64,000 nucleotides of DNA from Polaribacter sp. (GCA_028336245.1 JAOKTT010000001.1:85460-149459); one strand, 5' to 3'; shown: positions 33,076-58,795, numbered from the stretch's first letter. Notes: generated from the letters alone by a model not told the origin. A program made the numbers and translations.

Positions 33076-34554
33076 CTATTTTGGAGATTGGTTAACTACC
33101 TGCCTTAACCACCAGTCCCTATCCACATTATACTTGTATTTATCCCGTAGCTTTGCCAACGTATTGCGTAGATTTTTCTCAACATCATCAAATTCGGAAT
33201 TATTAATTAAGTTATTCATCTCTCCGGGATCCTTCTTTAAATCGTATAATTCATCAATATCATCTTTAAGAAAATTATCCACCAGTTTATATCTCTCTGT
33301 TCTGACAGCTAGCATGTCTGGCCCTGCATTTGGGTATTTATCGTCTACATAATATTCAAACATGGCAGCATCCCGCCACGCTACCTCTTTGTTCTCTTTT
33401 AAAAGAGGAACCATCGATTCTCCCTGCATATAACTAGGGATGTTGCTATTACTTAGATCAAGAAAGGTAGGTGCCATATCTATATTTAAACACATTTCTT
33501 TAATTTCAATACCTGGCTTAATCATTTTTGGGTATCTTATCAACATTGGAATCCGCATAGAGGGTTCATATGCAATACGTTTATCAGAATATGTATGCTC
33601 ACCCATAAAATATCCATTGTCACTTGTAAAAACGACAACGGTGTTCTCAAGCTCTCCAATTTCTTCAAGCGTTTCCAAAACTTTTCCCAAAGATTCATCT
33701 ACAGCGATTAAAGTCTCCAGCATCTTCTTTGTTTTTTCTTCCCGGATAGGCCAGCTTTTTCTCGGAAGAGAATCTACCGGTTGATATTTTTCGTGTTTTG
33801 AGCTAAAAGCTTTAATTCTTTGCCATTCAGGCTTTCCTGAAAAATTCTCTTCATGCGTATTAAAAGGCGGTTTTGGAATATCTTCCTTTTTATAAATATT
33901 TGAATGTCGCGGGGCAGGACTATGAGGTCCATGAGCAGCTTTATGCCAAAGGCAAAGATTAAAGGGCTTGTTTACATTTCTTTTTTCTTTAAGCCATTGT
34001 ATTGCTTTATTTGTAAGTATGTCTGTTATATATCCTTTTTCGCGGTAATCCTTTCCATTTTCATTTACCATCGGATCAAAATATTTTCCTTGACCAATAA
34101 AACTAAACCAATAGTCAAACCCTGGGCGAACGTGTTTTTTACCGCGATAGTGGGCCATGTGAATTTTACCAACCATTGCTGTTTCATAGCCCTGCTGCTG
34201 AAGAATAGAAGTATAAGATGGATATTTTTTCCAGTTGGGATCAAGCTGACCCTTATTTTGAGTCGCACCATGAACATGGGGGTATGTTCCTGTTAGAAAA
34301 CTTGCCCTTGAAGGAGAACAAAGCGACTGTGTAACAAAAAAATTTGTAAAATTAGCCCCTTCTCTCGCCAATCGATCCATATTTGGAGTTTCAAGAAATG
34401 GATACCGGTCATAAAAACCCAAGGCATCATAGGCTTGATCATCAACCATAACAAATAAAAAATTTGGCGGTAATTTCTGCTTGTTTGATTGTGCTATCGA
34501 ATCAAATGGTATTAGTAGTAACAGAAGTACTACAAAGTGAATTTTTTTAGTCAT
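33076..34554 (-). CDS. Sulfatase (S1-type)
   Basis: 'FLFVMVDDQAYDALGFYDRYPFLETPNMDRL', 'CSPSRASFLTGTY', 'VGKIHMAHY', 'TSDNGYFMGEH'. Confidence 0.93.
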   Translation of the reverse strand: MTKKIHFVVLLLLLIPFDSIAQSNKQKLPPNFLFVMVDDQAYDALGFYDRYPFLETPNMDRLAREGANFTNFFVTQSLCSPSRASFLTGTYPHVHGATQNKGQLDPNWKKYPSYTSILQQQGYETAMVGKIHMAHYRGKKHVRPGFDYWFSFIGQGKYFDPMVNENGKDYREKGYITDILTNKAIQWLKEKRNVNKPFNLCLWHKAAHGPHSPAPRHSNIYKKEDIPKPPFNTHEENFSGKPEWQRIKAFSSKHEKYQPVDSLPRKSWPIREEKTKKMLETLIAVDESLGKVLETLEEIGELENTVVVFTSDNGYFMGEHTYSDKRIAYEPSMRIPMLIRYPKMIKPGIEIKEMCLNIDMAPTFLDLSNSNIPSYMQGESMVPLLKENKEVAWRDAAMFEYYVDDKYPNAGPDMLAVRTERYKLVDNFLKDDIDELYDLKKDPGEMNNLINNSEFDDVEKNLRNTLAKLRDKYKYNVDRDWWLRQVVNQSPK

Positions 34555-41068: not shown

Positions 41069-42649
41069 TTATAAGTATTTAAACTTAACAGGTACTCCTT
41101 TCCAGTTTGTTGTCTTTAGCCATTCTGAAAGAGCTTCTTCAAGCTCAAGTACATCTTGGGTAAACTTTGGGTTATCAATAACATTCTTCATTTCGTTTGG
41201 ATCGTTTTCTAAATCATACAGAAATACATCGCCATCTGGATATATATTCAATTTATACCGATCGTTTCTTACCATGAAAGCTCCTTTTGCAGTGCTTAAA
41301 ATTTCGCGTTTCCCTTCAGGGTGGTATTGAATTCGTTCGCAAAATGAATATTTCGGTGCTTCGGTCATACTTTTTTCTCCTGTAAAGAACGGTACAATGT
41401 TCGTTCCACTTACTTTTGCTTTGTATTCTTCACCCACTACCGACAATATTGTAGGTTTTATATCTACTAAACTAATAGGCATAGATGAAACTCCTGGTTT
41501 GAACAATTTAGGATAACGAATAATAAAAGGTATATTGGCTATAGCTTCATAAAATGACTCGTTCGATTTCCATGTCATCCCGTGTTCACCCATCATATCC
41601 CCATGGTCTGCGGTAAAAATAATTAAGGTTTCATCCAGTTTGCCTTGTGCTTCCAGTTCCCCTAATATTTCACCAATTCTATCATCTAAATATTTGACGT
41701 TCGCATGATATATTCTTAGAAATTCCTTCAGTCCTTCATCTCCATAGCCATTTACCATTCGTCTTGACCACGAATTCTCGAATTTTTGTTCAGGAGTATT
41801 GAATTCAGGAATCTTTAATGAATCTGGATTGAACATTTCATAATATGGTGAAGGAGCAAAGTTTGGATCATGTGGCCAGATAAATGAACAGGTTAGCATA
41901 AAAGGATCATTTGTCTCTCCGCTTTCTTTAATCCTTGCAATCGTTTTTTTAGCAAGAATACCATCAATCCATTCTTCGGGTTTAATTTTCAATCGTCCCA
42001 TTTTAGTCACAAAGTCCCTATACTCAATGGAGCTCCATATTGAGTCCAGGTGTTCTCGCTTTCCTTTCATGTAAGGAGTGCCTTCAACGGGAAAACTTTG
42101 CCCGTAAAAATTCATATATTCATCAGAGTCCGCTTTTTTAAGAGTTACCCCAGATTCATTAGCTTCCTTTTTGTACTGGTATCCAAAATCATATTGGTCT
42201 GGATAATAGGGTAAATAAGGCAGGGAATCACTTTCCACGTGCCATTTCCCATAATGGTGTGTTTCATACCCATTTTCTGACAGGATTTTTTCGGTAGTTT
42301 CATCATCAATCGTAATCCCCTCTTTCTGTCTCCATCCCATATTTTGTACAATTCCATGTTCATGAAGATACTGTCCTGTTACAATTGAAGCTCGGGAAGG
42401 TGAACAGAATGGTGTTGTACAGTATGCTCTATCGAATCGAACGCCCTCATTTGCAAGGCGATCAATATTAGGAGTCTGCATTTCACCCCCATAACAACTC
42501 AACGCATTGACATTTAATTGATCGACCATAATAACCAACACGTTTGGTTTATTTTGGTTACTATGCGTCTTCGATATCTTTTTTGAAGAACATGAGGATA
42601 TGCCAACCATTAGAATAGCGATGATTAATTTTTCAATTGTTATTTTCAT
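41069..42649 (-). CDS. Sulfatase (S1-type), lipoprotein
   Basis: Lipobox 'GISSC'; 'IMVDQLNVNALSCYGGEMQTPNIDRLA', 'CSPSRASIVTGQY', 'YGKWHVES', 'TADHGDMMGEHG'. Confidence 0.93.
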   Translation of the reverse strand: MKITIEKLIIAILMVGISSCSSKKISKTHSNQNKPNVLVIMVDQLNVNALSCYGGEMQTPNIDRLANEGVRFDRAYCTTPFCSPSRASIVTGQYLHEHGIVQNMGWRQKEGITIDDETTEKILSENGYETHHYGKWHVESDSLPYLPYYPDQYDFGYQYKKEANESGVTLKKADSDEYMNFYGQSFPVEGTPYMKGKREHLDSIWSSIEYRDFVTKMGRLKIKPEEWIDGILAKKTIARIKESGETNDPFMLTCSFIWPHDPNFAPSPYYEMFNPDSLKIPEFNTPEQKFENSWSRRMVNGYGDEGLKEFLRIYHANVKYLDDRIGEILGELEAQGKLDETLIIFTADHGDMMGEHGMTWKSNESFYEAIANIPFIIRYPKLFKPGVSSMPISLVDIKPTILSVVGEEYKAKVSGTNIVPFFTGEKSMTEAPKYSFCERIQYHPEGKREILSTAKGAFMVRNDRYKLNIYPDGDVFLYDLENDPNEMKNVIDNPKFTQDVLELEEALSEWLKTTNWKGVPVKFKYL

Positions 42650-42994: not shown

Positions 42995-44587
42995 TTAATC
43001 AATGTTGCTATTGGCCGAAACTTCAGTGATAGGAATGGGCCAGGTATAATCTTCAGGGCCTCTAATCCCTGCTTGTAAACCTCTATTTTTAGGATCAAAT
43101 GCAAGTTTAATTTTCTCTTCATACACGCCCATACGCGTTAGATCAAACCAACGATTACCCTCCATAAATAGCTCAGCCGCTCGCTCTCTTAACAATGCAT
43201 CCCTAAAATCTGACATAGTCATTCCTGTACCGTCAAAATCAACCATCCCTACTGCAGTTCTTAATGCATTCACATCGGTATTTGCCAGTTGAGGAGCTTG
43301 ATTAATTTCAGCAAGTGCTTCGGCGCGCATCAGGTAAACATCAGACAAACGAATGACATGCCAGTTTTGCTGGCTCGTAGCTTCAGTTGTTGCATCGCTA
43401 TCAATGTACTTTGAAGTATAAACCCTATTCAATTTACCCTTGGAAGCACCAGTCTCCAAGTCAAACCTCACATAACCGTCCATTTTTGGGTTTAGCTCAT
43501 GACGCAGCGTCTCTGTCTCAAATTCATGAATAATGCCATTCACATACCTTGGATCGGCAACATCTACATTATTTTTAACAAACCCAGCAATTGCCCAATT
43601 GGTACCCCCCCAGCCACCTCCGCTTAATCCTGCATTCCGCGGAGAAAAGAGGTTAGATACTGTTGATCCTTGTTCCGTTGCAGAACTACTCTGGATATCA
43701 AACAATATCTCCGAATTGTTTCCTTTTGTAGGGTCAAAAATATTAACCCAATCATCCAAAGTAGAAACCAGTTGATAACCGGGCTGACTTATAGCTAAAT
43801 CGCAATATATTTTACATGCTTCATAATAAGCCGTGTAATCCGCACCAAAAGCGGTATATGGAGCACACCCTTCACTACCCTCTGATGCAGCGCGGGCAGA
43901 AGAAGCAATATGAAGATAAACACGTGCCAGCAAGGCTTGGGCCGATGCATTGGTAGCTCTACCCAACGCCATATCCAGACGTCCCCAGCAGTTTTCCGAT
44001 GCATATTTTAAATCACTAATAATAATATCATAAATATCAGTTATAGGTGAAACAGGCAAACCGTTCTCCTCTCCCGGTTGCACAGGTATTGTTCTCAGAG
44101 GCACCTCGCCAAAACAACGAACCAGATTGAAGTAATGTAATGCTCTCAAAAACTTTGCTTCACCCACAATACGGGCCCTCAAGCTTTCGTCCATATCTAT
44201 TCTAGGAACATTATAGATCACATTATTGGCATCGCGGATGGCTTTATAAATTTGGTTCCAGGTATCAGGTAAAGTTGTATTAGAGGACGTTAATACCCCG
44301 TTGTAGTAATCATTATGTTTCCAGCTTGATCTCCCCTGGTCGGAAGATGCAAAAACATTGGAAAGAAACTGCTGGCTATAATAACCAAATCCAGCTTTCA
44401 TTTGAGCGTAAGCAGCTGTCAATGCATTGAGTGCATCTTGTTCATTCTGATAGAAAAAGTCAGTTCCCGTCTGTGTCTTTGGTTCTTCTTGAAGTACACT
44501 TTCACAAGAAGTAAGGATTACCAAAACCATTAGTAGATATGCAAAGTTTTTCATTTTAATATATTTTTTTAAGGTTATCTTATTCAT
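42995..44587 (-). CDS. SusD/RagB-family outer-membrane lipoprotein
   Basis: 'VILTSCESVLQEEPKTQTGTDFFYQNEQDALNALTAAYAQM', 'FLRALHYFNLVRCFGEVPLRT', 'RAAELFMEGNRWFDLTRMG'. Confidence 0.97.
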   Translation of the reverse strand: MNKITLKKYIKMKNFAYLLMVLVILTSCESVLQEEPKTQTGTDFFYQNEQDALNALTAAYAQMKAGFGYYSQQFLSNVFASSDQGRSSWKHNDYYNGVLTSSNTTLPDTWNQIYKAIRDANNVIYNVPRIDMDESLRARIVGEAKFLRALHYFNLVRCFGEVPLRTIPVQPGEENGLPVSPITDIYDIIISDLKYASENCWGRLDMALGRATNASAQALLARVYLHIASSARAASEGSEGCAPYTAFGADYTAYYEACKIYCDLAISQPGYQLVSTLDDWVNIFDPTKGNNSEILFDIQSSSATEQGSTVSNLFSPRNAGLSGGGWGGTNWAIAGFVKNNVDVADPRYVNGIIHEFETETLRHELNPKMDGYVRFDLETGASKGKLNRVYTSKYIDSDATTEATSQQNWHVIRLSDVYLMRAEALAEINQAPQLANTDVNALRTAVGMVDFDGTGMTMSDFRDALLRERAAELFMEGNRWFDLTRMGVYEEKIKLAFDPKNRGLQAGIRGPEDYTWPIPITEVSANSNID

Positions 44588-47500
44588 TAATAATTAAATT
44601 TCACACCAAATACATAGTTTTTTGTACCGGGATACGATCCAAAATCAATTCCTCTTCTTTGCGGATCCTTGTTATAAGATTGTACTTCAGGATCAAACCC
44701 CGGATAATCAGTCCAGGTAAATAAATTCTGTACCGAAGCATACAACCTAAAGCTTTTTCCTGTTCCTTTAATATTAAGAGTATATCCTAGGTTTACATTT
44801 TTCAATCTGATAAAAGAACCATCAAAGATCTGTCGACCCGACACGCTGAACCTGTCTCCAGAAGTTATTGATGGAGCTGGATTGTTAGCACCTACGAGCC
44901 TTCCAATAGATTCATCGTAACTAATTTGCCCTGAAGCTTTATCTACCGTAAGCGGAGCAATCCATGCACTATTATACGCGGAAGCCAAACCGTTGGCACC
45001 TCTCTGAAAAGCTGCTAATGCCCATGAATCTACCCAAAGTATATCACCTCCTTTTTGGCCTGTGAACAAGACACTCAGATCCCAATTTTTAAAAGTAACA
45101 GTATTGCTTAACGATGCTGTAAAGTCAGGGTTTGGGTCTCCTATCTGTACATAATCATCAAAATTAATCTGTTGCAACGCACTTGGATTTCCATCTTCAT
45201 CAGTGTCCACAGAATTGTTTACATATTTTATTTCACCTGGTGCGGCACCTGCTATACCACTGTCAATGGCTTCCTGCCAATTGGCATAGATGCCTTCGGT
45301 TTCCGCTCCCCAAAAAATACCCAAAGGTTTACCCTCCATAAACATAGAAGGAAAAGTATTATTATACCCTACAGATGGCCCTAATTGGTACTCCAGGTTA
45401 GAGTTTAGTTCAACCAGTTTGTTTTTGTTTATGCTTAGGATTCCTAAAACATTCCAACTAAAATCACTTTTTCGAATAAGATCTACTCCTAAACTAAACT
45501 CTAAACCCTTATTTTCAACTTTACCAAAATTATCTACCCTACTCTCGTAGCCATTTGAAGCAGGTAAATTAACATATTGAAGCAAGTCATGCGTTTTTTT
45601 ATAATAAGCATCTACAGTCAAGCTCAACCTCGAATTAAACATGCTAAAATCTACACCAACATCAAACTGATCCGTTGTTTCCCATGTTAAGTCTGGGTTG
45701 CTCAGGTTCTCCTCATAATATCCCGTCACTACTTGGTTATTAAAATTATACCTGATCGGCGAAGTCAATGCCAATGATTGAAAAGGCTGGATGGGGTTAC
45801 TACCTGTTTTCCCATATGAAAAACGTAGTTTTAAATTGGATATAGCCTCAACTTCATTTAAGAAAGGTTCTTCGGAAGCTCTCCAAGCCAATCCTATAGA
45901 TGGAAATATTGCGCTCTTTTTATTCGCTGCAAACTTGGAAGAAGCATCCATTCTTGCATTCACATCAATATAATATTTTCCTTTATAATTGTATGCTACC
46001 CGCATTAAACCAGAAAGTAAACTCTGTTCTCTAAATCCGGCTATTGGCACCTGAATATCTGTTGCCGACTCGAAGGTGTAGTATGATGTTAGATCACTCC
46101 CATAGCCATATGCCTTGTTAAACATACTACGGATATTGTTATTTTCGTATGTTCCAACAACAATTGCATCTACACGATGTCCGTTAAAGTTATTTTTATA
46201 ATGAAGGTTGACTTCAGCATAAGTCTTTATATTTTGCAAAAAAGCCTGTGAAGCTTCACCATTATTTCTCCTACCCCGAGTAGTGTTGGTTGGGTAATAA
46301 CTATCCCTAAAACTTTTTTGGTAGTTCAAAGCTCCTTTTAGGGTAGCACTCAAATTTGGTGTAATTTCACCTTTGATAGTAAGTGACTGAATAAAAGACA
46401 CCGCTTCTTTTCTATCTACTACATACTTGGCTAGGGTGTATGGGTTTGAAATTGGTTCATCGTCGTTCAATTCTGCATAAATCTCATCCCCTTGTCCCAG
46501 TTCAAGAAGCGGAAATATAGGTTGAAAACTCAGGGAATGGGACACAACGCCTCTTTGCTGAAATATTTCCCCATTACCAGTAGAAGCTGCATTCCCGTTG
46601 GAATAAGAAGCCTTTGTTTGGGTTAAAAGTGTAATTCTATCATCAAATGCCTTTCTTTTGGCATTCATATTAAAGGTAGCCCTCTTAAAATCAGAGTTAA
46701 TAATAACACCCTCGTTGTCTAACAAGCCAAGGCTTATGGATAAATTATTGCTTTTTGATCCTCCACGGTATGCGATATTATAATTTTTAGAATATGCTTT
46801 ACGAAACACTTGATCCTGCCAATTTGTATTAATACCAGTTGATTCAGGATATGGAAGTTGAAATGTAGCCACTTCATCAAAGTTACCAGCTGTAATTGGC
46901 TGGGTGCCGTTAAACACAGCCCCTGATCTATTCGGGTTTGTGATGTCTATGTACAACTGGTTCACAACTCTCTGGTTCATGAACTCCTCAAATTCTGGAC
47001 CATCAAATACATCTATATTTTTAATTACATCTGTAAGCGTAGTTTCAACTGTCACTGAAATTTTATCAGTTCCCTTTACATTATCAGCGCTTTTTGTGGT
47101 AATCACCACGACACCATTAGCCCCTCTCGCACCATAAATAGCAGTTGCAGAAGCATCTTTTAACACTTCCATTTTTTCAATATCGTTAGGGTTAAGAAAA
47201 CTCAGCGAACTTTGAGACTGACCAGAACCACTGTTTCCTTGCGCATCCATCAATGGGCTAATGGGAATACCATCCACAACATATAGCGGTTGAGTTCCTC
47301 CCAACATAGAGTTTGTACCCCTAATAGAGATTCCAATACCTCCACCAGGTTCTGAGTTTTCGCTTACCACAAGTCCTGCCACCTGCCCCTGCAACATCTT
47401 CTCAACAGAGTTTGTTCTGTTTTTATCCAATACTTCCGAAGTTACCTGAGAAATGGAGCCGGTCAAATCATCTTTTCTGACATCATAATAGCCTACACTA

Positions 47501-47811
47501 ATAGTTATTTCGTCCATTTGGGCTATATCTTCCTCCAAACTTACATTTATAATAGACCTCATCTGGACTGCTATCTCCTTGGTTTTTGACCCAATATATG
47601 AAAACACTAAGACGTCACTGTCATTAGCCTTAAGATTAAATTTTCCTTTCTCATCGGTAATAGTTCCTTCTTGGGTTCCTTTTATTAGAACCGTAACATA
47701 AGGTAATTGAGTTCCTGTGATGCGATCGGTTACAACTCCAGAGATACTCCTTTGCTGTGCCAAAATTCCTAGGGGCATTGCAATTAATAATAATATTAAT
47801 AATTTTTTCAT
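44587..47811 (-). CDS. SusC/RagA-family TonB-dependent receptor
   Basis: 'ISGVVTDRITGTQLPYVTVLIKGTQEGTITDEKGKF', 'GGIGISIRGTNSMLGGTQPLYVVDGIP', 'IEKMEVLKDASATAIYGARGANGVVVITTK'. Confidence 0.98.
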   Translation of the reverse strand: MKKLLILLLIAMPLGILAQQRSISGVVTDRITGTQLPYVTVLIKGTQEGTITDEKGKFNLKANDSDVLVFSYIGSKTKEIAVQMRSIINVSLEEDIAQMDEITISVGYYDVRKDDLTGSISQVTSEVLDKNRTNSVEKMLQGQVAGLVVSENSEPGGGIGISIRGTNSMLGGTQPLYVVDGIPISPLMDAQGNSGSGQSQSSLSFLNPNDIEKMEVLKDASATAIYGARGANGVVVITTKSADNVKGTDKISVTVETTLTDVIKNIDVFDGPEFEEFMNQRVVNQLYIDITNPNRSGAVFNGTQPITAGNFDEVATFQLPYPESTGINTNWQDQVFRKAYSKNYNIAYRGGSKSNNLSISLGLLDNEGVIINSDFKRATFNMNAKRKAFDDRITLLTQTKASYSNGNAASTGNGEIFQQRGVVSHSLSFQPIFPLLELGQGDEIYAELNDDEPISNPYTLAKYVVDRKEAVSFIQSLTIKGEITPNLSATLKGALNYQKSFRDSYYPTNTTRGRRNNGEASQAFLQNIKTYAEVNLHYKNNFNGHRVDAIVVGTYENNNIRSMFNKAYGYGSDLTSYYTFESATDIQVPIAGFREQSLLSGLMRVAYNYKGKYYIDVNARMDASSKFAANKKSAIFPSIGLAWRASEEPFLNEVEAISNLKLRFSYGKTGSNPIQPFQSLALTSPIRYNFNNQVVTGYYEENLSNPDLTWETTDQFDVGVDFSMFNSRLSLTVDAYYKKTHDLLQYVNLPASNGYESRVDNFGKVENKGLEFSLGVDLIRKSDFSWNVLGILSINKNKLVELNSNLEYQLGPSVGYNNTFPSMFMEGKPLGIFWGAETEGIYANWQEAIDSGIAGAAPGEIKYVNNSVDTDEDGNPSALQQINFDDYVQIGDPNPDFTASLSNTVTFKNWDLSVLFTGQKGGDILWVDSWALAAFQRGANGLASAYNSAWIAPLTVDKASGQISYDESIGRLVGANNPAPSITSGDRFSVSGRQIFDGSFIRLKNVNLGYTLNIKGTGKSFRLYASVQNLFTWTDYPGFDPEVQSYNKDPQRRGIDFGSYPGTKNYVFGVKFNY

Positions 47812-47956: not shown

Positions 47957-49207
47957 TTAATTTAAGATATTAAACTTCAAAGCTTTCTCCTGAAACACAG
48001 ACAAAAGTGGCATCTTTTTATTTTCCTGATAATACTGCTTTAAAAAGCGTTTACTGTCCTTATAAAACTTATTATGCGTGTGCCATATTTCTTGTTTTCT
48101 AGCTTTATCATCTATCATCCAGAAGCCTACTTGCTCTCCTGTTTCTTTTTTAATTTCATTATTATACATTTCCCAAAAAAGAATAAAAGGAGCATTCCAT
48201 TTTAACCCTGTCTTAATCACCCATTTTGCACGCTCATTTTGCACTTTTTCGCCATACCTCATGAAAGGACTTCCATACTCTCCAATCCATACACGCTTGC
48301 CGTCTGGCAATCCTTTTTTAGGTTGAAGATACGATTCGATATAATCCAAAGATTCGCTCAAAGAAACATGTAACTCTTGTTCTGTTTTAGGTGGATTTGT
48401 TGCGTCATAAGAAGAATAGGAAACATAGTCCGGGTTCACCTCTTTAATGATCGTATTGGTTACTACTTTATCGCCTAATTCAATGCCACGTCGTACTAGG
48501 TTCACTTCCACATAGTGATAGATATTAACATTCTTATATTCGGTATCTCTTTTAGCATCGTCGATGGCTTTCTGACGTACCTTCGCCCATTTCAACATGC
48601 CTTCTAATGTAGCTTCGTCGGCTGGTTTAGTCCGATCATAGTCCCAACGCAAGTGCCAATCGCCTTCCCAGTTACCTAGATAAAATACCTTGCCTGAGTT
48701 ATTGAATTCCTTTAATAAATAACTTGTCAACTCGTATAACTCTTTGTATAAAGCCTCGGCATAAAAATCAGGATAGCCTCCTATAAATTTAATTTGACTG
48801 GTATCATTTTTCTTGCCTTTTGGTTCAGGTGAATATTGCGAAAAACCGTATACCCAGATGTGATAAAACTTAAAATCCATATTGAGAACTTCTTTAACTG
48901 AAGGCTCTAATTGAGCTAAACTTGTTAATGAAGTTATTTCTTTATTCTCAGTAAGACCATAATTTTCGTTACAATATCGTGGATGCATCGAGAATTTAAG
49001 TAAATTAGAACCCATGTCTTTAATTTGCTTAGCTGTTTCTACCAACATCGACTCATTCGTGAATTTATATTTAGGCCCCACAGTTTGGGTGCCCACTATA
49101 TAATTATAGTCTTCCACCAACCTTTTCATAGCGTCATCTTTTGACGGGGTCTGCGCCCAAGTACAATTAACGATTAGTAATCCAATAATAATATAGGTAC
49201 TCTTCAT
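47957..49207 (-). CDS. Secreted TIM-barrel-like glycoside hydrolase, family not assigned
   Basis: Signal peptide ending 'NCTWAQ'. Clan-A-like elements: 'VFYLGNWEGDWHLRWDYD', 'NIYHYVEVNLV', 'RVWIGEYGSPF' (possible nucleophile Glu), 'FILFWEMYNNE'. Adjacent to SusC/D. Confidence 0.6.
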   Translation of the reverse strand: MKSTYIIIGLLIVNCTWAQTPSKDDAMKRLVEDYNYIVGTQTVGPKYKFTNESMLVETAKQIKDMGSNLLKFSMHPRYCNENYGLTENKEITSLTSLAQLEPSVKEVLNMDFKFYHIWVYGFSQYSPEPKGKKNDTSQIKFIGGYPDFYAEALYKELYELTSYLLKEFNNSGKVFYLGNWEGDWHLRWDYDRTKPADEATLEGMLKWAKVRQKAIDDAKRDTEYKNVNIYHYVEVNLVRRGIELGDKVVTNTIIKEVNPDYVSYSSYDATNPPKTEQELHVSLSESLDYIESYLQPKKGLPDGKRVWIGEYGSPFMRYGEKVQNERAKWVIKTGLKWNAPFILFWEMYNNEIKKETGEQVGFWMIDDKARKQEIWHTHNKFYKDSKRFLKQYYQENKKMPLLSVFQEKALKFNILN

Positions 49208-49324
49208 ACAACTTGATTTTATTTTGTTTTTATATATCTTCTAAGCTTATCTGCTGACTCCTTCTTTTAGAAATAGCTATACCAACACAATCGCTATCGC
49301 AAAATGCAAAAGTAAAACCAAATA

Positions 49325-49365
49325 TGAGTTTGAGAACTGTTCAGATGAGTTTAAAGGCTAATCAA
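49325..49365 (-). promoter_or_regulatory. Shared ~40-bp regulatory element, copy C (upstream of the 47957-49207 gene)
   Basis: Reverse strand TGATTAGCCTTTAAACTCATCTGAACAGTTCTCAAACTCAT; AAACTCAT direct repeat with 21-bp period. Confidence 0.75.
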
Positions 49366-49680
49366 CACCTATTACATACTCATTAAATGATGATTACAAA
49401 CCTCTATGGTTATACTTTACAAAAATAAAATCATATTCAAATTCTCAAAAAAGGTTGAATTTAGCCATATAAATATGTGTAATATATCTTTTAAAAAGAT
49501 ATAAATAAACTATCCACCTTTGAAGGAGAACTTGCAGCGAATAAACGAATAACAAGCCTTTAAAATAAAAAGCTACACTTATTTTTAATTGCTGCACTCT
49601 ATTTTTATATTATTAACGCTTACTCCACGGTTTCAATATCGAGCTAATAGATTTTAGGGATGAAATCACAGAGGTGAAAA

Positions 49681-52600
49681 TCAGTTTTCCTGGGTTCTCA
49701 TAAATTGTTTTGGCGTTTTACCGTAGAACTTTTTAAAAACTGTACTGAAGTATTTCGGATCATGAAAACCCGACTCATAAGCAATATCCGCAATGCGCAT
49801 ATTTTGATTCGATTTGAATAATTCTACGGCATGATTCAATTTAATCTTTATGATTAAATCAGAAGGTGTCATACCTGTTAGGCCTTTTAACTTTCTAAAA
49901 AGATTTGAACGACTAAACCCTAATTTTGAACAAAGTACATCGATAGTGAAATCCCGCTCAGTTATATTTTCCTTAATTAGTTCTACCGCTGTAGACAGAA
50001 ATTTCTCATCAGGCGACGTATAATTGGCTTTCTTAATATTTTCTTTACCTGCAATACCCCCCAGTGCCTGGCGTGTGCGCAATAGATTATTTATTGTAGC
50101 TTTTAAAACCTCAATACTAAATGGCTTCTCAACATAGGCATCAGCTCCCACATCAAGACCTTCTACTTTATCTTCAACGCCTCCCAAAGCAGTAATCATC
50201 ACCACAGGAATGTGGCTCGTTTTAATATTGCTTTTTATAATTTTGCACAATTCTTTACCGTTCATTAGTGGCATCATTACATCAGTAATAATTATATCTG
50301 GATTCTTTTCAACCGCTAAAACCAGCCCTTCCTTGCCATTAGGAGCTTCAATTACACGATAACTTTTATCCAGTTCTGCTTTAATGATTGCTCTAAGATC
50401 TTCGTTATCTTCCACCAGCAGTGCCAATTTGTTTTCTCCAATTATATCAGGAATCTTATCGTAACCACTATGAATAGTTTCTACCGTTTTAATTTCATCA
50501 TTTTTAAAGTGCTTGGAACCCTTTTGCAGTTCAACAATAAATGTTGAACCGATGTTCTCTTTACTTTGTAAAGATATTTTACCCTGATGTAATTCTACGA
50601 TTCGTTTTGCCAACATAAGACCTATACCACTTCCCGAAATACCCCTATGGTTAACATTGTCACCGCGAGTAAACCTTGTAAATATTTGTTTTTGTTGCTT
50701 TTCTGGAACTCCTAGCCCATTGTCCGAAAACTTGATTTTAATATTTTCTTCATTTGATTTTACGAGAATTTTTATTGATCCACCTTCCTCTCCATATTTA
50801 ATGGCATTAGATATTAAATTATTAATAACACTGCTCATTTTATTTTTATCAACCCAAATGTTCACATCTGGAGAGGTAACATCCAGATCCATAGATTTCT
50901 TTTGTAGCAGAGGTTGAAAATCTGAGACAAGTAATTTAAGTAAGCTTTTTATTTTCACCTCCTCCACACTTAGCTTTAATCTCTGCCGTTCCGATTTCTG
51001 AAACTCCAACAACTGAGACACATACTCACTTAGACTATTGGCATTCCTTTTTATCAACTCAAAAGCATCCTTGTTCTTATCTATAGGTGGAAGTTGATTT
51101 ATCAATAATTGAATAAGCGTGACGGGTGTTCGAATATCATGAGCTACATCTACAAAGAATTTTATTTTTTCATCGCTAAAACGTTGCTGATTCTTAGCGC
51201 GACTAGTTAAAATAAGAAGCACCCCTAAAACCCCTAAAATGAGGAAATACACGATATAAGCCCACCACGTTTTCCAAAAAGGTTTTTTAATTACAATATC
51301 CTTACGATACACATGAGGGGACTGCACTCCATCTGCATTAAACGTTGTAATGTTTAAAATATAAGTTCCGGATGGCAAATTAGAATAAGAAACAGTTCTG
51401 CTATCTTCTGACAAAATCGGATTTTCATCGTACCCTATCAATCTCCATTGAAACACATCTTTTTTAGGTCCATGAAATTTCAAGACCTCCGCTGTAAAGC
51501 TCAATGAGTTTTGGTCATAATCTAATGCTAACTTATTCTGGTAATTGATATCTCCAGTATTTATAATTGAATTAGACTGAACTCCATTTATTTTAAAATC
51601 ACTTACAAACAATTTTGATGCAAAAGCATCCTGCTCTAGTTCCTCCGGATCAAAAATAACCGCTCCATCGGGACCACCAAAAGCCAACCTGCCATCCCTA
51701 AGCTTCGTGGAAGCACCAAAACCAAACTCATTAGCCTCCACGCCCTCTTCTTGATCATATTGCCTAAAAAAAGAGTCTTGTAAATTAAATCGCCACAAAC
51801 CTGTAGAAGTGCCCAACCACAGCAAACCATCATTATCTTGCTGAATAGAATATACGATTCCTAACTTTCTTGCATCTTGTGAGTCATAGTGCTTAAACTT
51901 ATTCTCCTTTAAATCATAACTATGAATACCTGCATCATTACCAATCCATAATATTTTCTGGTTTAAATCTAGACATAAGGCATGAGCACTGCCTAAAATA
52001 TTTTGATTAAGAGATTTAGGATCCTCTAGTTTTTGAAAACTATAATTCCGTTTGTTTAAACGATAAACTCCTGCACCCGAGGCAACATACATAAAATCAT
52101 CAGCTCCTTCAAGGATGCACTTTATTATGCCACTGGGAAATCGCTGAACAAACTCCCCTTTATTATATAAGCTCAAAGGGCCATCATTGCCTCCAACCCA
52201 CAGCTCATCGTCTTTTGTAAAAGTAGAAAATATAAGATTCAGTTTCTTTTGCTGATTTCTTAATAACTCAGTTACAGCGCCCGATGCGCTATTTATAGTC
52301 AACAGCCCTTCTCCGTAGGTACCCAAGATCAGTTCTCCTTGATATTCATTAATACTTAGAACAGATGTTTTTTCTAGTTTTCTAGATTTATTAAAATGCG
52401 TCCACCTTCCATCTTTACTTCGTCGACCAACACCATCCTCTGTACCAAACCACAAAATCTCTTCCTCATCTTCATAAATACTGCGTATGATATTATTATG
52501 AATACTATTTTTTTCATTTAAAACGTGTGAAATATTATCGAAAGGATTGTCTTTTGAATAAAGTAAATCAACACCAATTTCACCAACTGCAAGCCAATAA

Positions 52601-53511
52601 ACATCAGATTTATCTATAAATATTCTATTTACATTATTCTGCCTTAAGGTGTTTTTTTGGTCTGGATCATTCATAAAATGATGTCGAACTTTAAACGATC
52701 TATCTACAACATACAAACCCAATCTATCAACAGCAATCACAGCATCTCCATTCGCGTTAAACGCTATATCCCGAACTGAATATGTTTTTAATGATGAATT
52801 AAACAATTCAACACGGATTGATTTATCAGTATCGTTAACAAAGAGTCCATCCCTTTCTGTCCCTATCCAAACTCTATTTTTATCGTCAATAGAAAGTGCT
52901 GTAATATCCTTATCCCTTAAGAGGGTGTCAACGACAATCAAATTTCCTTGGTCATACTCGAACGAAACAACCCCTTTTGAGGTCGCCGAATATACAGATT
53001 GCTCCTGAACGATTAAACGGCGGTTGAATGTAAAGTCAGAATACAGCACCTCCCCTAACTTTTTTTTATCTAGATCGTACATTAGGAGACCATGGGCCAA
53101 TCCAAAAATGATTTTATTATCTATGACACAAGCAGATATAAACTGAAAAGTAGGCTTATAAAATAATTCAACAAAGTCATTCTGATGATATCTATATTTT
53201 AAAAGAACGCCATCACGGCCAACAATATAGAGTTCTCCATTATAGTTAATGACCTCTTTAATATTATTGTTTTTAGTATTTGAAAAATCGGATATTGAAT
53301 ACTGCTTTATTTCATAGCCCGAATACTTGTTTAATCCTATAGATGTACCAAGCCACATATATCCCAACGAATCTGTTGCAAAGGCATTCACTGTACCATT
53401 ACTCAAACCGTCTTCAATACTAAGGTGTTTTACTTGATAAGCCTGTGCATTCAGTGAATGTAAAACAAACAAAACTACAAACAACTTCAGAAACCTATTC
53501 GTAAATTCCAT
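49681..53511 (-). CDS. Hybrid two-component system regulator (HTCS): beta-propeller sensor, Y_Y_Y domain, histidine kinase, receiver, AraC-type HTH
   Basis: Propeller repeats ('GYMWLGTSIGLNKYSGYEIKQYS', 'GLLWLGTSTGLWRFN'); kinase 'FFVDVAHDIRTPVTLI', 'GSGIGLMLAKRIVELH'; receiver 'PDIIITDVMMPLMNGKELC'; HTH 'IADIAYESGFHDPKYFSTVFKKFYGKTPKQF'. Confidence 0.98.
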   Translation of the reverse strand: MEFTNRFLKLFVVLFVLHSLNAQAYQVKHLSIEDGLSNGTVNAFATDSLGYMWLGTSIGLNKYSGYEIKQYSISDFSNTKNNNIKEVINYNGELYIVGRDGVLLKYRYHQNDFVELFYKPTFQFISACVIDNKIIFGLAHGLLMYDLDKKKLGEVLYSDFTFNRRLIVQEQSVYSATSKGVVSFEYDQGNLIVVDTLLRDKDITALSIDDKNRVWIGTERDGLFVNDTDKSIRVELFNSSLKTYSVRDIAFNANGDAVIAVDRLGLYVVDRSFKVRHHFMNDPDQKNTLRQNNVNRIFIDKSDVYWLAVGEIGVDLLYSKDNPFDNISHVLNEKNSIHNNIIRSIYEDEEEILWFGTEDGVGRRSKDGRWTHFNKSRKLEKTSVLSINEYQGELILGTYGEGLLTINSASGAVTELLRNQQKKLNLIFSTFTKDDELWVGGNDGPLSLYNKGEFVQRFPSGIIKCILEGADDFMYVASGAGVYRLNKRNYSFQKLEDPKSLNQNILGSAHALCLDLNQKILWIGNDAGIHSYDLKENKFKHYDSQDARKLGIVYSIQQDNDGLLWLGTSTGLWRFNLQDSFFRQYDQEEGVEANEFGFGASTKLRDGRLAFGGPDGAVIFDPEELEQDAFASKLFVSDFKINGVQSNSIINTGDINYQNKLALDYDQNSLSFTAEVLKFHGPKKDVFQWRLIGYDENPILSEDSRTVSYSNLPSGTYILNITTFNADGVQSPHVYRKDIVIKKPFWKTWWAYIVYFLILGVLGVLLILTSRAKNQQRFSDEKIKFFVDVAHDIRTPVTLIQLLINQLPPIDKNKDAFELIKRNANSLSEYVSQLLEFQKSERQRLKLSVEEVKIKSLLKLLVSDFQPLLQKKSMDLDVTSPDVNIWVDKNKMSSVINNLISNAIKYGEEGGSIKILVKSNEENIKIKFSDNGLGVPEKQQKQIFTRFTRGDNVNHRGISGSGIGLMLAKRIVELHQGKISLQSKENIGSTFIVELQKGSKHFKNDEIKTVETIHSGYDKIPDIIGENKLALLVEDNEDLRAIIKAELDKSYRVIEAPNGKEGLVLAVEKNPDIIITDVMMPLMNGKELCKIIKSNIKTSHIPVVMITALGGVEDKVEGLDVGADAYVEKPFSIEVLKATINNLLRTRQALGGIAGKENIKKANYTSPDEKFLSTAVELIKENITERDFTIDVLCSKLGFSRSNLFRKLKGLTGMTPSDLIIKIKLNHAVELFKSNQNMRIADIAYESGFHDPKYFSTVFKKFYGKTPKQFMRTQEN

Positions 53512-53705
53512 GGCAATATTTAATAAAAATTAAAATTCAATTTAAATAGAATAACCTTAATCTACAACTTTATAAAGCTTATTATTATTCTTGTTTTTTC
53601 ACTGCTATTAATCAAAAACTTTTTCTTAATTCTTTTAAAACACTCAACAGCTTTTTGATCTTCTTTGACCATCCTTTTATTCAGTTTGTCCTTATCCTCC
53701 CTAAT

Positions 53706-53930
53706 TTAAAAAGCGGGTAGCGAATATGTAAAAAGCGACAGTCTGCAAAAGTAATTTTCGAACAAAACACCTTCTTTTGCAAAACGCTCCATATTTAGCG
53801 TTTGCAAAAAAAGGTGATGAACATAGATTCCTAAAGCATCGCAAGGTTGATCATCAACCAATACAAAAAATAAGCTGGGCTGTTCTTTTGTATTATTAAG
53901 TAGTACTTGGAAAGATGCAAAATATAAAAG
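53706..53930 (-). pseudogene. N-terminal sulfatase remnant
   Basis: Reverse-strand reading 'NNTKEQPSLFFVLVDDQPCDALGIYVHHLFLQTLNMERFAKEGVLFENYFCRLSLFTYSLPAF*' aligns with 'LPPNFLFVMVDDQAYDALGFYDRYPFLETPNMDRLAREGANFTNFFVTQSLCSPSRASF' of the intact sulfatase at 33076-34554. Truncated, catalytic Cys lost. Confidence 0.8.
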
Positions 53931-53977
53931 CTACTCGTAAAATAAGTAGTACCTACTTCATTATATTATTTTTCTAT

Positions 53978-55612
53978 TTAATAAAAAATAAAGTACATCG
54001 TGAAACAAGCCATCACCAGCAGTAAGGATAATACTCTAAAATTTTTATACCACACCACATTTTTAAGCTCTTCCGTCTCTTGTTTCCAAATTTCCAACGT
54101 CCATGTATTTTGCTTGACTTTCTGTTCATCAGGCAAATGAGAGAACATACTAACGATTACATTAACAGCGACGCTTAGAAGGAGAATAATTGGAGCTAAA
54201 AGAAGGAAATGCATACTAATTTCCACATCAAGCACATACTTTGATATCATAATAATGGCTGCTAATAACAAACCAGACATCAAACCGGCAAAAGCACCTT
54301 TTTCGTTAGAACGCTTCCAAAATAAACCTAAGAAAAATGTACCTACAATAGGTGGTGCCAAATACGACGTAATTTCCTGATAATAGGAAACCAGCGAATC
54401 AAATTGTTCAATTATTGGCGCCCAAAGAACAGCAAATACCAGCACTAAAAAAGAGGTTACACGACCTACCAAAACTAGTTTTTTCCCATCAGCATTTGGA
54501 TGAAAGGGTTTGTAAAAATCCATAGTAAATAAAGTAGCTACAGAACTTAATGTAGCACTTAAAGTAGATGTAAGTGCTGAAATCATCGCTGCTAATATTA
54601 ATCCAATCAATCCAACAGGAAGTAACTTTACAATCATGCGTGGATATACTTGGTCGGTATTAATACCAAAGTTTGACTTTAGGGAGCTTCCGCTTATCAT
54701 GTCAAATGGCAAATTATCTACACCAAAAAGATTAGTACCTCGGGCAATTAATCCAGGTAGTATAAAAATAAACAAGGTGAATAGATATAAGAAACCAACA
54801 AATAAAACCCCTTTTCGACCATGGTCGATTGTTTTAGCAGACAAAACGCGTTGCACCATCACCTGGTTGTTTCCCCAGAAGTAAAACCCTAAGATGGGAA
54901 TTCCAATCCACATACCTAACCAAGGCACCGTTGGATCGCTCATTGGACGGGTTAACTTTAACCAAACACCCTCATTAAAACGCGTGTATAATTCTTCCCA
55001 TCCTCCTATGGAGTCAAGCGCGAAAAAATACAATATAGCTGAACCAATTATGAGCACTGCTGCCTGAATCATATCTGCATAAATAGCGGAAGATAATCCT
55101 CCAATAATAGTATAGCTCCCTGCAATAGCAGCCATTATAACGATAATCGTGAACAACTCAAACTCGGGAAAAATAAGCTTAATAATTAATGCGCCTGTGT
55201 AAAGTGTTGCTGCCGCATCTAAAAATATATTTCCAAAAATAGTAATGAATGAAAAATAATATTTCGATTTTTTATCAAAACGTCTCTCTAAGAATTCTGG
55301 TATCGTGAAAATACCTGATTTTATATAAAAAGGAAGAAAAAACAGGGCGAAAAACACCATCACTAAAACCGAAATCCAGTTATAATTAAAAACGGCAATC
55401 CCACTTATAAATCCTTCACCAGAATGTCCCATTAAGGTAGAACTGGAGACACTTGCTGCAAATAAGGAAAGACCGATGACAGGCCAAGTCATACTTCTAC
55501 CTGCCAAAAAGTAAGAATCTGAATCCGAACTTTTACCATTTTTTAATGCCCACCAAATTATTCCCGCCAAAAATACAACCAGGATGGTAATGTCAATTAT
55601 ACTAATATTCAT
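53978..55612 (-). CDS. Sodium:solute symporter (SSS family)
   Basis: 'DSYFLAGRSMTWPVIGLSLFAASVSSSTLMGHSGEGF', 'GFYFWGNNQVMVQRVLSAKTIDHGRKG'. Confidence 0.93.
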   Translation of the reverse strand: MNISIIDITILVVFLAGIIWWALKNGKSSDSDSYFLAGRSMTWPVIGLSLFAASVSSSTLMGHSGEGFISGIAVFNYNWISVLVMVFFALFFLPFYIKSGIFTIPEFLERRFDKKSKYYFSFITIFGNIFLDAAATLYTGALIIKLIFPEFELFTIIVIMAAIAGSYTIIGGLSSAIYADMIQAAVLIIGSAILYFFALDSIGGWEELYTRFNEGVWLKLTRPMSDPTVPWLGMWIGIPILGFYFWGNNQVMVQRVLSAKTIDHGRKGVLFVGFLYLFTLFIFILPGLIARGTNLFGVDNLPFDMISGSSLKSNFGINTDQVYPRMIVKLLPVGLIGLILAAMISALTSTLSATLSSVATLFTMDFYKPFHPNADGKKLVLVGRVTSFLVLVFAVLWAPIIEQFDSLVSYYQEITSYLAPPIVGTFFLGLFWKRSNEKGAFAGLMSGLLLAAIIMISKYVLDVEISMHFLLLAPIILLLSVAVNVIVSMFSHLPDEQKVKQNTWTLEIWKQETEELKNVVWYKNFRVLSLLLVMACFTMYFIFY

Positions 55613-55737
55613 AATAAAAAAATTTAATAAAAGGCTCTGAGACTTTATGTAAGAGATTCTTCTCTATGCCCAAAATGCTTTTGTTTGATTAATCCCTGTT
55701 TCAATGAAAATTTTATATTTCATTTCTCACATTGTAC

Positions 55738-56751
55738 TTATTTTGTGTTTTGCTTTATAAACTGTACCAATTCATGAATATTTGCAGTTGCCGCACAACA
55801 CCACTGGTCTGATGCACCATAATACACATATAAGGTATCATCAACAATAACATTCCCCGTTGGAAAAACTACGCCCCATTTATACAATCCATTTTTTTCA
55901 ATATCCGTTTCTGGTTCTAGGATAAAGTCTTTTGTGCGATACAAAATTTTGGTAGGATCTTCTAGATCGAGCAAACAAGCACCTAGTCGGTACGTGAAAT
56001 TTTTATCTACCCCATGATACAACATTAACCAACCCTCATTGGTACGCAATGGCGGTGTGTTTCCGCCTACTTTGTACTCCCACCATTCTTCGCCTTTCAG
56101 TAAAAGCGTACTCGCTACGTTCCAGGTCATCATATCTTCAGAAGACTTAATCCATATTGCAGGTGTTTCTGTATTGTATTTCGGGCCAACATAGTTCTTA
56201 GGACGGTGCAACATAAAAAACTTACTATTTATTTTTTCCGGAAATAAAATAACATCGCGATCATCTAGACTAGGATCTGTTAACCTGCCTACTTTTTTAA
56301 AATTGACAAGGTCCTTTGAGATAGCTAATGCAGTATTTCCAACATTCTCTCGCAAGCATTTTGGTGCAAACTCACTAAGTTTTGGTGCTTCAATCTGATC
56401 ATATTCATTTTTCCAATACTGTCCTGGAGGATACGGGCGAAAGGCATAAGTCATATAATACTCATCGCCAAATTTAACGACTCGTGGATCTTCCACAGAA
56501 CCAGCATCAAATCCGTTTGGGTCTGGTGTTAATACAGGCTTATCTTGTACACGCTTAAAATTGAATCCATCGGTACTTGTGGCTAAGCCTATGTGTATAT
56601 GGTGCTCTTTGTCTTCTCCTGCAGCTCTGTATAATAAATAGAATATACCATCTTCATACCACGCCGCTGGATTCGTTGTCACCAAGCTTTCCCATTCATT
56701 TTCAGGGTTAGGTGATAAAATAGGGTTTCCTTCAAATTTCTTGAGTTTCAT
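55738..56751 (-). CDS. GH130-family glycoside phosphorylase/hydrolase (start re-called at MKLKKFEGNP)
   Basis: 'KKFEGNPILSPNPENEWESLVTTNPAAWYEDGIFYLLYRAAGED', 'DAGSVEDPRVVKFGDEYYMTYA', 'DRDVILFPEKI', 'YHGVDKNFTYRLGACLLDLEDPTKILYRT'. Confidence 0.9.
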   Translation of the reverse strand: MKLKKFEGNPILSPNPENEWESLVTTNPAAWYEDGIFYLLYRAAGEDKEHHIHIGLATSTDGFNFKRVQDKPVLTPDPNGFDAGSVEDPRVVKFGDEYYMTYAFRPYPPGQYWKNEYDQIEAPKLSEFAPKCLRENVGNTALAISKDLVNFKKVGRLTDPSLDDRDVILFPEKINSKFFMLHRPKNYVGPKYNTETPAIWIKSSEDMMTWNVASTLLLKGEEWWEYKVGGNTPPLRTNEGWLMLYHGVDKNFTYRLGACLLDLEDPTKILYRTKDFILEPETDIEKNGLYKWGVVFPTGNVIVDDTLYVYYGASDQWCCAATANIHELVQFIKQNTK

Positions 56752-57190
56752 CTTTGTCTTCTTTAATTCTGCATTCCATTTGAATACTTTACAAATGCTT
56801 GAGTCAAATATATAAGGCCTTAAAGAAGGCAAGGTTTAATAGCTGATCAAGTAGTTTTAAAAAATGTTCAAATAATTATACTTTGTTGGTATTCTGATTG
56901 ATAACTAGAATTTTTATTCTCAAAATATAAGAATTTACGGCCTTACCTGGAAATATAGCTTGATTCTGACGGTTTTGAAGTTGAAAGATTAAAGCTGATT
57001 AAGAGCCGAGAATACGAAAACGAGAGAACCCATAAAATAAAAGCTGTTTTGTGTATCAGAAGATACTATTAATTGTAAAGATTTATTTTTCACCAAAACC
57101 AAAAAAGATACTTTGGATAGTCGATTTACATTTGGGAAGATTAATAAAGGCATCCACCATCGATTCAATAACAGCGTAAGCAGATATTAT

Positions 57191-57231
57191 TGATTAGCCT
57201 TTAAACTCATCTGAACAGTTCTCAAACCCAT
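57191..57231 (+). promoter_or_regulatory. Shared ~40-bp regulatory element, copy A (upstream of the 57284 gene)
   Basis: TGATTAGCCTTTAAACTCATCTGAACAGTTCTCAAACCCAT; AAACTCAT/AAACCCAT direct repeat with 21-bp period. Confidence 0.75.
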
Positions 57232-57283
57232 ATTTTGTTTTAATATTGCAACTTGCGATAAGCAATACAAAAAACATAAAAAA

Positions 57284-57805
57284 ATGAAAAAAAAGCACAT
57301 TTTAACTTTAGTAATGACCCTTTTCTTAACGGTTGCTTCTTTTGGACAAGAACTAATGCTAAACGGAGGGTTGGAAAATTGGACTACAGATACAAATCCC
57401 ACAGATTGGACCAAGGCAGAGGGATTAGTAAAATCTACAGATGCTAACACCGGTTCTTTTTCAGCTAAGCAAACAAAAGATGCTTCAAAAGGCCGCGTAA
57501 ATTTAACTCAAAATATTCCGAAGATTACTGTAGGAAAGAAGTATACTATCACTTTTTGGTATAAAATAGCGGTTGCTGGAAAACCTGTTAAAATATGGTG
57601 TAATTTTAGAGATAACAATGGCGGTTTTATAGGCGGGAATGATCCTGATGTACTCAGAGCTAATTTGGATATTAATGGTAATGCTTGGACAAAATATGAG
57701 GCGACTGTTACTGCACCAGCTGCAGCCGTAAAGTTTTGGTTTGAGGTCAGAACGTATAGTAATACAACAGTTTACTGGGATGCTTTTTCATTTATCCAAG
57801 CGTAA
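57284..57805 (+). CDS. Secreted CBM4/9-like carbohydrate-binding protein, single domain
   Basis: Signal peptide ending 'ASFGQ'; 'LMLNGGLENWTTDTNPTDWTKAEGLVKSTDANTGSFSAKQ...YTITFWYKIA...VYWDAFSFIQA'. Confidence 0.75.
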   Translation: MKKKHILTLVMTLFLTVASFGQELMLNGGLENWTTDTNPTDWTKAEGLVKSTDANTGSFSAKQTKDASKGRVNLTQNIPKITVGKKYTITFWYKIAVAGKPVKIWCNFRDNNGGFIGGNDPDVLRANLDINGNAWTKYEATVTAPAAAVKFWFEVRTYSNTTVYWDAFSFIQA

Positions 57806-57834
57806 GCACCCATTATTAAGGGCGTAATCTGTAT

Positions 57835-57875
57835 TGATTAGCATTTAAACTCATCTGAACAGTTCTTAAACCCGT
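57835..57875 (+). promoter_or_regulatory. Shared ~40-bp regulatory element, copy B (upstream of the 57928 gene)
   Basis: TGATTAGCATTTAAACTCATCTGAACAGTTCTTAAACCCGT; AAACTCAT/AAACCCGT direct repeat with 21-bp period. Confidence 0.75.
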
Positions 57876-57927
57876 ATTTGGTTGTACTTTCGGAATTTGT
57901 GATCACTAATATAAAAAACATAAAAAG

Positions 57928-58707
57928 ATGAACAAAAATTACATTTTAACGTTATTTATGACACTTTGTTTAACTATTGCTTCTTTTGGACAAGAAATGA
58001 TGTTAAACGGAGGGCTGGAAAATTGGACTTCAGATACGGAACCAACAAATTGGCTCAAGGCAGAGGGAGTAACAAAGTCTACAGATGCTAACACAGGGTC
58101 TTTTTCAGCTAATCAAACAAGTATTACAGGTAGAATAAATTTAACTCAAAATATTCCAAATACTGTAATAGGGGAGAGTTATACTATAAGTTTTTGGTAT
58201 AAAATAGCCCCTGGAGCTGAAAAACCTGTTAAAATGTGGTCTAATTTTAGAGATGATACCGGTGGCTTTATAGGTGGGACTACTGCTGATGTAATAAGAA
58301 CAAATTTAGCTGTTAATGGCAATGCTTGGACAAAATATGAAGAAACGGTTATTGCACCAGATACGTCGGTGAAGTTTTGGTTTGAGTTAAGAACGTTTGA
58401 TAATACAACCGTTTATTGGGATGATTTTTCATTTTTCCACAATGCTACAGCTTCTCTAAAAAACAACGCTATCGTGGGGTTTGCAGCGTACCCAAACCCA
58501 GTTTCTAACGGAATTTTAACTATTTCTTCTGCTGGTAACTCTTTAAAAAATATAACAATTTTTAACCTTTTAGGGAAACAAGTACTTTCATCAAGTTTTT
58601 CTGGTGTACAATCAAATGTGGATGTGTCTAGTATTTCTGCTGGAATTTATATTTTAAAGGTAACTGAAGCTGGTAAAACCGCAACTGAAAAGTTAGTGAT
58701 TCGATAA
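57928..58707 (+). CDS. Secreted CBM4/9-like protein with T9SS C-terminal sorting domain; tandem paralog of 57284-57805
   Basis: 'MMLNGGLENWTSDTEPTNWLKAEGVTKSTDANTGSFSANQ' plus 'FAAYPNPVSNGILTISS...ISAGIYILKVTEAGKTATEKLVIR'. Confidence 0.85.
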   Translation: MNKNYILTLFMTLCLTIASFGQEMMLNGGLENWTSDTEPTNWLKAEGVTKSTDANTGSFSANQTSITGRINLTQNIPNTVIGESYTISFWYKIAPGAEKPVKMWSNFRDDTGGFIGGTTADVIRTNLAVNGNAWTKYEETVIAPDTSVKFWFELRTFDNTTVYWDDFSFFHNATASLKNNAIVGFAAYPNPVSNGILTISSAGNSLKNITIFNLLGKQVLSSSFSGVQSNVDVSSISAGIYILKVTEAGKTATEKLVIR

Positions 58708-58748: not shown

Positions 58749-58795
58749 TTTTAAAGGTTCTTAAATCTATCTCTTAGATTTAAGAACCTTTAAAA
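58749..58795. terminator. Strong hairpin between the CBM-like gene and the haem-protein gene
   Basis: Perfect 21-bp stem TTTTAAAGGTTCTTAAATCTA-TCTCT-TAGATTTAAGAACCTTTAAAA, with A/T runs on both sides. Confidence 0.85.

Follow-up and report, generated by a model that had tools for sequence, protein, structure and literature searches.

In a 64,000-nucleotide stretch of Polaribacter sp. DNA (the whole stretch is called the window below), the promoters of a glycan utilization cluster share a direct-repeat element that is, with high probability, the operator of the neighboring hybrid two-component system (HTCS, 49681-53511). On present sequence comparisons the HTCS would activate four promoters in the window, among them that of the sensor itself, with positive feedback. 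The original prediction, that the element is the HTCS operator and links the CBM genes with the hydrolase-SusCD genes, is supported by the published geometry of such operators, linkage across Bacteroidota lineages, covariation with the HTH domain and genome specificity.

Results

Genes of the cluster

The proposed operator-binding protein is encoded on the minus strand (49681-53511) by a single open reading frame of 1276 residues in which Pfam recognizes propeller repeats and Y_Y_Y, HisKA, HATPase_c, receiver and AraC-type HTH domains. The S/CHIP motif described for the HTCS receiver domain (PMC11253607) reads TSHIP in the window protein and in seven orthologs. Also on the minus strand is a SusC/SusD/sulfatase run headed by the gene of a secreted (beta/alpha)8 hydrolase of clan GH-A type (47957-49207), which is followed by genes for a SusC-like TonB-dependent transporter (44587-47811, assigned from its open reading frame and synteny), a SusD-like lipoprotein (42995-44587) and two sulfatases (41069-42649 and 38971-40962). 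A sodium:solute symporter (53978-55612) and a GH130 phosphorylase (55738-56751) are encoded on the same strand. The plus strand carries the genes of secreted CBM_4_9-like protein 1 (CBM1, 57284-57805) and its tandem paralogue, CBM_4_9-like protein 2 (CBM2, 57928-58707), which has a T9SS type A sorting domain. A perfect 21-bp inverted repeat with a 5-bp loop (58749-58795), likely a terminator, lies between CBM2 and a gene of 900 codons at 58828.

The hydrolase matched no Pfam or NCBIfam family, and a PDB sequence search gave no match. Its fold is predicted with confidence to be a (beta/alpha)8 barrel (mean pLDDT 89.9), the nearest structures being those of clan GH-A enzymes (GH39, GH5_18 and the GH164 beta-mannosidase; TM about 0.5, 9-14% identity). 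The conserved GNWEGDW and IGEYG motifs contain the candidate catalytic residues Glu181 and Glu310, and relatives are found in several phyla. The protein may represent an undescribed glycoside hydrolase family. The presence of GH130, mannose-6-phosphate isomerase and many sulfatases suggests a sulfated mannose-containing glycan as the substrate. A possible precedent for this substrate, the diatom cluster for sulfated alpha-mannan (PMC13063451), was rejected: it depends on GH92 and GH195, and the window proteins examined included no GH92.

Three near-identical probable operators built from 21-bp units

A search of the window for AAACTCAT-N13-AAACYCRT gave exactly three matches, at 49324-49352 (-), 57203-57231 (+) and 57847-57875 (+), and 100 dinucleotide shuffles gave none. 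The longer TGATTAGC... core was found at the same three places only. Hence, the three near-identical elements of the original prediction are where it had placed them, the minus-strand core starting at 49364, one base from the predicted 49365. The geometry it had described also held: the half-sites of each copy start exactly 21 bp apart, the second half-sites of copies A and B end 52 bp before an ATG (57284 and 57928, respectively), and copy C lies directly downstream of the HTCS gene, in the 473-bp gap that separates this gene from that of the hydrolase. The source assembly (1.38 Mb, 54% complete) contained just these three sites when up to three mismatches were allowed.

Comparison with orthologs extended the element to 42 bp, composed of two 21-bp units of the form yTGAnnAGnnyTyAAACyCAT arranged in tandem with no gap. 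Thus, the 21-bp spacing of the predicted half-sites was right, but AAACYCRT is only the 3' part of the full unit. Operator C (49324-49365, -) has the units TTGATTAGCCTTTAAACTCAT / CTGAACAGTTCTCAAACTCAT, and operators A (57190-57231, +) and B (57834-57875, +) lie in the CBM1 and CBM2 promoters. A sequence-only profile of 17 hydrolase promoters, called R1, gave E values of 3.6e-13, 5.0e-13 and 7.7e-12 for C, A and B, respectively. In the window unit 1 and unit 2 are identical at 14 of 21 positions. Each unit contains two sub-boxes, TGA and AAAC, an arrangement that would suit an AraC-type domain having two HTH motifs. Inspection by eye found no third unit further upstream. A perfect palindrome, GAACAGTTC, lies between the half-sites in the window-clade copies; it was rejected as the true site, being not conserved in orthologs.

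A fourth site upstream of the sensor genes

The three-gene regulon first proposed was correct in that the CBM genes and the hydrolase-SusCD genes carry the element, but was drawn too small, because a fourth, diverged operator at 56830-56871 (-) had been missed. This site, TTGAACATTTTTTAAAACTAC / TTGATCAGCTATTAAACCTTG, lies upstream of the GH130, symporter and HTCS genes (R1 E=4.7e-4) and was found with a matrix made from hydrolase promoters alone, scoring 29 versus a shuffled maximum of 14. Its unit 1 has AAAAC in place of AAACy, and 78 bp separate the end of the site from the GH130 ATG at 56751. The -7 box TATATTTG (56805-56812, -), a perfect sigma-A TAnnTTTG, is found 17 bp after the operator. 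The same hydrolase-promoter-only matrix detected the diverged operator before GH130 in all 11 loci scored, with the same spacing (p<=0.05 in each and p=0.003 in nine); four loci (L042, L047, L117 and L123) were left out of the scoring as their GH130 starts were not matched by the pattern. Some orthologs (L046 and L055) have a weak site before GH130.

A TTG-started reading frame (55738-56832) would overlap its own operator and core promoter, and thus the ATG at 56751 (MKLKKF...) is most likely the GH130 start. Given that the GH130, symporter and HTCS genes are co-directional, the HTCS is predicted to activate its own operon. The fourth site suggests autoregulation of this predicted operon, in which the 466-bp gap between the symporter and HTCS genes leaves read-through a supposition.

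The probable operator and the -7 box lie at a constant distance

At all four window sites the -7 box begins 17 bp after the operator. Operator C is followed at this distance by CATTTTGC (49299-49306, -), a -7-like box that is of the SAnnTTGC type in orthologs, and the corresponding boxes of the CBM1 and CBM2 promoters are CAACTTGC (57249-57256, +) and GAATTTGT (57893-57900, +). When 24 hydrolase promoters were aligned (the operator register of one, that of L039, was shifted one base by hand), the eight-base box SAnnTTGC started 17 bp after the operator. Position 2 was A in 23 of the 24 promoters, the TT at positions 5 and 6 was found in 23 and 24, respectively, and position 7 was G in 21, the three exceptions being shifted by one base; the TTG began 21 or 22 bp downstream of the operator in 24/24. 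The first base was C or G in all except one of these promoters and fits neither the sigma-A nor the SM5 consensus. The CBM promoters have the same box, ending in TTGC, TTGT or, once, TTGG.

In Flavobacterium the -7 box of sigma-A promoters reads TAnnTTTG; the SM5 class, which was assigned to an alternative sigma factor, has TAnnTTGY in the same place (PMC9723704). In the register fixed by the operator, the hydrolase and CBM promoters read SAnnTTGY where sigma-A has TAnnTTTG, whereas the window GH130 promoter matches TAnnTTTG. Relative to the F. psychrophilum classes (PMC9723704), GH130-type promoters, with TAnn(T/A)TTG, resemble sigma-A and the SAnnTTGY of the hydrolase and CBM promoters is close to the SM5 box, but the C/G first base of the hydrolase promoters and the tie of the box to an operator 17 bp upstream are differences. 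The constant distance between operator and box is an argument for action of the element at the promoter, and class II activation is suggested by unit 2, which overlaps the -33 region. The available portions of the literature on HTCS operators and on Flavobacterium promoters gave no description of a constant operator-to-box distance with two box types. It is conceivable, if rather doubtful, that the operator and the non-consensus SAnnTTGY box form a rigid promoter module of constant spacing, in which the structural genes (hydrolase-SusCD and the surface CBM proteins) would have tight SAnnTTGY promoters and the sensor operon a leaky TAnnTTTG promoter.

Conservation in orthologous clusters

Orthologous clusters were collected by an HTCS search and a hydrolase-alignment scan of 84,980 species genomes. 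The carriers were Flavobacteriaceae (Hyunsoonleella, Yeosuana, Aestuariivivens and Kordia), Marinilabiliales (Labilibacter, Carboxylicivirga and Marinilabilia) and further Bacteroidota MAGs, and the usual gene order was GH130 - symporter - sulfatase - HTCS - hydrolase - SusC - SusD. The operator was found in the HTCS-hydrolase gap with p<=0.017 in 20 of 22 gaps, and 17 of the 22 beat all 300 dinucleotide shuffles; the G509 gap gave a weak match (p=0.08). The sulfatase gene located between the symporter and HTCS genes in most orthologs (62-75% identity) is about 20 kb away in the window, at 33076-34554, and its displacement leaves the gap at 53512-53977.

Within the genus, one other genome of 168 had the element by pattern search. 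This genome (G064, complete in one contig) carries the element four times, upstream of the hydrolase ortholog and of three CBM genes, always within the syntenic cluster. Two-mismatch matches in three further genomes (G065, G076 and G163) were located in housekeeping regions and were dismissed as chance. Divergence between the window and G064 was 7% in the operator and 0% in the next 25 bp, versus 21% in the upstream flank and 14% at HTCS third codon positions. An uncultured MAG labelled Marixanthomonas (G565) has the operator before the hydrolase gene and before both CBM genes, and all CBM operators read in G064 and this MAG retain both units and the -7 spacing. CBM operators were confirmed in three close relatives only. 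In several orthologous loci a further site resembling the operator lies downstream, about 13 kb from the hydrolase promoter. In Carboxylicivirga and Labilibacter (L207 and L209) this site precedes the gene of a secreted, signal peptide-bearing repeat protein, which may correspond to the CBM genes of the window lineage.

Genome specificity and covariation with the HTCS

When R1 was run on the genus, the complete G064 genome gave its four sites (hydrolase plus three CBM genes) with E values of 6.8e-14 to 2.5e-9, the next best match having an E value of 0.02. Hits below 1e-5 were confined to six genomes (G000, G020, G064, G081, G160 and G161), all of which are among the 14 of 168 that carry the HTCS. 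G000, G064, G160 and G081 (the last through the identical L043 sequence) had contributed to R1, and G020 and G161 were not in the model. The other eight HTCS-carrying genomes gave no strong hit; among their loci, several run into contig ends and others appear diverged. Hence, the motif is not scattered genome-wide without a link to PUL genes, an outcome that had been set out beforehand as counting against the proposal, and the scan for downstream genes that the original prediction had called for placed all G064 sites before hydrolase or CBM genes. The G020 HTCS ortholog (G020:C1:2236388-2237995) has one in-frame TAA, and its operator is intact.

Operator identity tracks HTH-domain identity (Mantel r=0.73, p=0.0002, n=19 clusters), a correlation from which shared ancestry was not removed. 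The window HTCS is 83% identical to that of Labilibacter sediminis (L037), a bacterium of another class, versus 45-48% to those of most congeners, and the window hydrolase is 85% identical to its L. sediminis counterpart. The window operator has an identity of 0.79 to that of Labilibacter versus 0.60 to that of congener G161. As the window HTCS and operator are both nearer Labilibacter than congeners, operator and regulator appear to have travelled together, which suggests horizontal transfer of the cluster together with its operator.

Discussion

The 21-bp direct-repeat architecture of HTCS operators is already published for gut Bacteroides, where the predicted motifs are direct repeats, spaced 21 bp apart on average, that precede co-localised glycan genes (PMC3878776), and Bacteroides HTCS fragments bind promoter DNA having such predicted sites (PMC11253607). 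The window element has the 21-bp direct repeat in its three copies, the fourth site and the orthologs, and has a conserved location upstream of a SusCD operon co-localised with the HTCS gene. As far as the accessible part of that study goes (Ravcheev et al. 2013, PMC3878776), the likeness to B. thetaiotaomicron HTCS_Man, HTCS_Rgu and HTCS_Hep includes a two-site direct repeat of about 21 bp (e.g., 16-bp sites with a 5-bp spacer), location before glycan-utilization operons adjoining the HTCS gene, prediction by comparative genomics and motif similarity that tracks HTH similarity. The present operator differs in its sequence, yTGAnnAG...AAACyCAT, and in its hosts, which are marine Flavobacteriaceae and Marinilabiliales rather than gut Bacteroides. 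The constant 17 bp to the -7 box and the separate conserved site at the promoter of the HTCS-gene operon are seen here and are not described in that part of PMC3878776. The SusR-like operators of Bacteroides in the same source are also direct repeats upstream of SusCD-type operons, but SusR is not an HTCS and its repeat distance is 67 or 77 bp; with a distance of 21 bp, an operator of the SusR type was ruled out. In two unrelated HTCS loci of the genus (L158 and L159; G020 and G148), direct repeats of 21 bp that share an ATGTAAC core precede the HTCS start. These are possibly the own operators of the L158 and L159 HTCSs but are not significant on this evidence, given that chance alone would, by a rough estimate, produce about one such self-match in the sequence scanned.

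The proposed mechanism is that sensing of the glycan would result in phosphorylation of the HTCS. Two AraC-type DNA-binding domains would then occupy the same face of the DNA in head-to-tail orientation, each HTH motif reading one sub-box, and the downstream domain would cover the -33 region and recruit RNA polymerase in the manner of class II activation. Four promoters would respond, those of hydrolase-SusC-SusD-sulfatases, CBM1, CBM2 and GH130-symporter-HTCS. Uptake, depolymerisation and glycan binding would rise together with the sensor, in positive feedback.

We weighed three other explanations of the element. The copies could be alike through recent promoter duplication alone, the element being a conserved stretch without a dedicated operator. 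Operators A and B belong to a tandem duplication that took in the CBM gene together with its promoter (84% over 289 bp), and hence they are not independent copies, and the similarity of A to C (92% over 71 bp) continues beyond the operator into the core promoter, such that C or A probably arose by promoter copying. However, the operator and promoter have been kept where the flanks cannot be aligned, as in G064, where copy A stands in an otherwise diverged gap, and the 42-bp two-unit layout persists in clusters whose HTCS is only 45-58% identical and in other orders. Copying also leaves the 21-bp periodicity inside the element unexplained, and we regard duplication alone as highly improbable. 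It is also very unlikely that the element is the operator of a different regulator, such as the AraC-type protein encoded at 18270-19157, the GntR-type protein encoded at 16632-17648 or one encoded elsewhere. Since the HTCS gene, operator and targets are physically linked and co-inherited, co-occurrence and covariation alone do not separate the HTCS from another binding factor, and the palindrome between the half-sites could suit another dimer. The palindrome, however, is a feature of the window clade that is not conserved in orthologs, and neither the AraC-type nor the GntR-type protein has a homologue within the hydrolase flanks (<=10 kb) of the orthologous loci that keep the operator. Moreover, the direct-repeat geometry and the linkage fit an HTCS (PMC3878776).

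The remaining explanation accepts an HTCS operator for the hydrolase/SusCD promoter only, the CBM or GH130-symporter-HTCS sites being relics or very weak, with no four-promoter regulon or feedback. The confinement of confirmed CBM operators to three close genomes would agree with this, and the GH130 site is more degenerate and precedes a better sigma-A -7 box, which could work without activation. Set against these points, every CBM operator read in G064 and the Marixanthomonas-labelled MAG retains both units and the -7 spacing, and the site at the GH130 promoter has the same spacing in 11/11 loci. We consider this restricted regulon unlikely and favor the HTCS as activator of all four promoters.

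The analysis gives a concrete predicted operator, with its half-site structure and promoter spacing, for the HTCS of a marine sulfated-glycan cluster and, for use in EMSA or reporter assays, a short DNA probe. A set of co-induced genes is predicted as well, the proposed regulon now also taking in two surface binding proteins and the operon of the sensor itself. If the doubtful rigid-module reading were true, it would be a general design of marine Bacteroidota by which glycan operons are kept fully off and yet enough sensor is retained. The 21-bp direct-repeat rule is extended from gut Bacteroides to marine Flavobacteriaceae and Marinilabiliales, with the operator kept together with its regulator as the cluster appears to have moved between classes.
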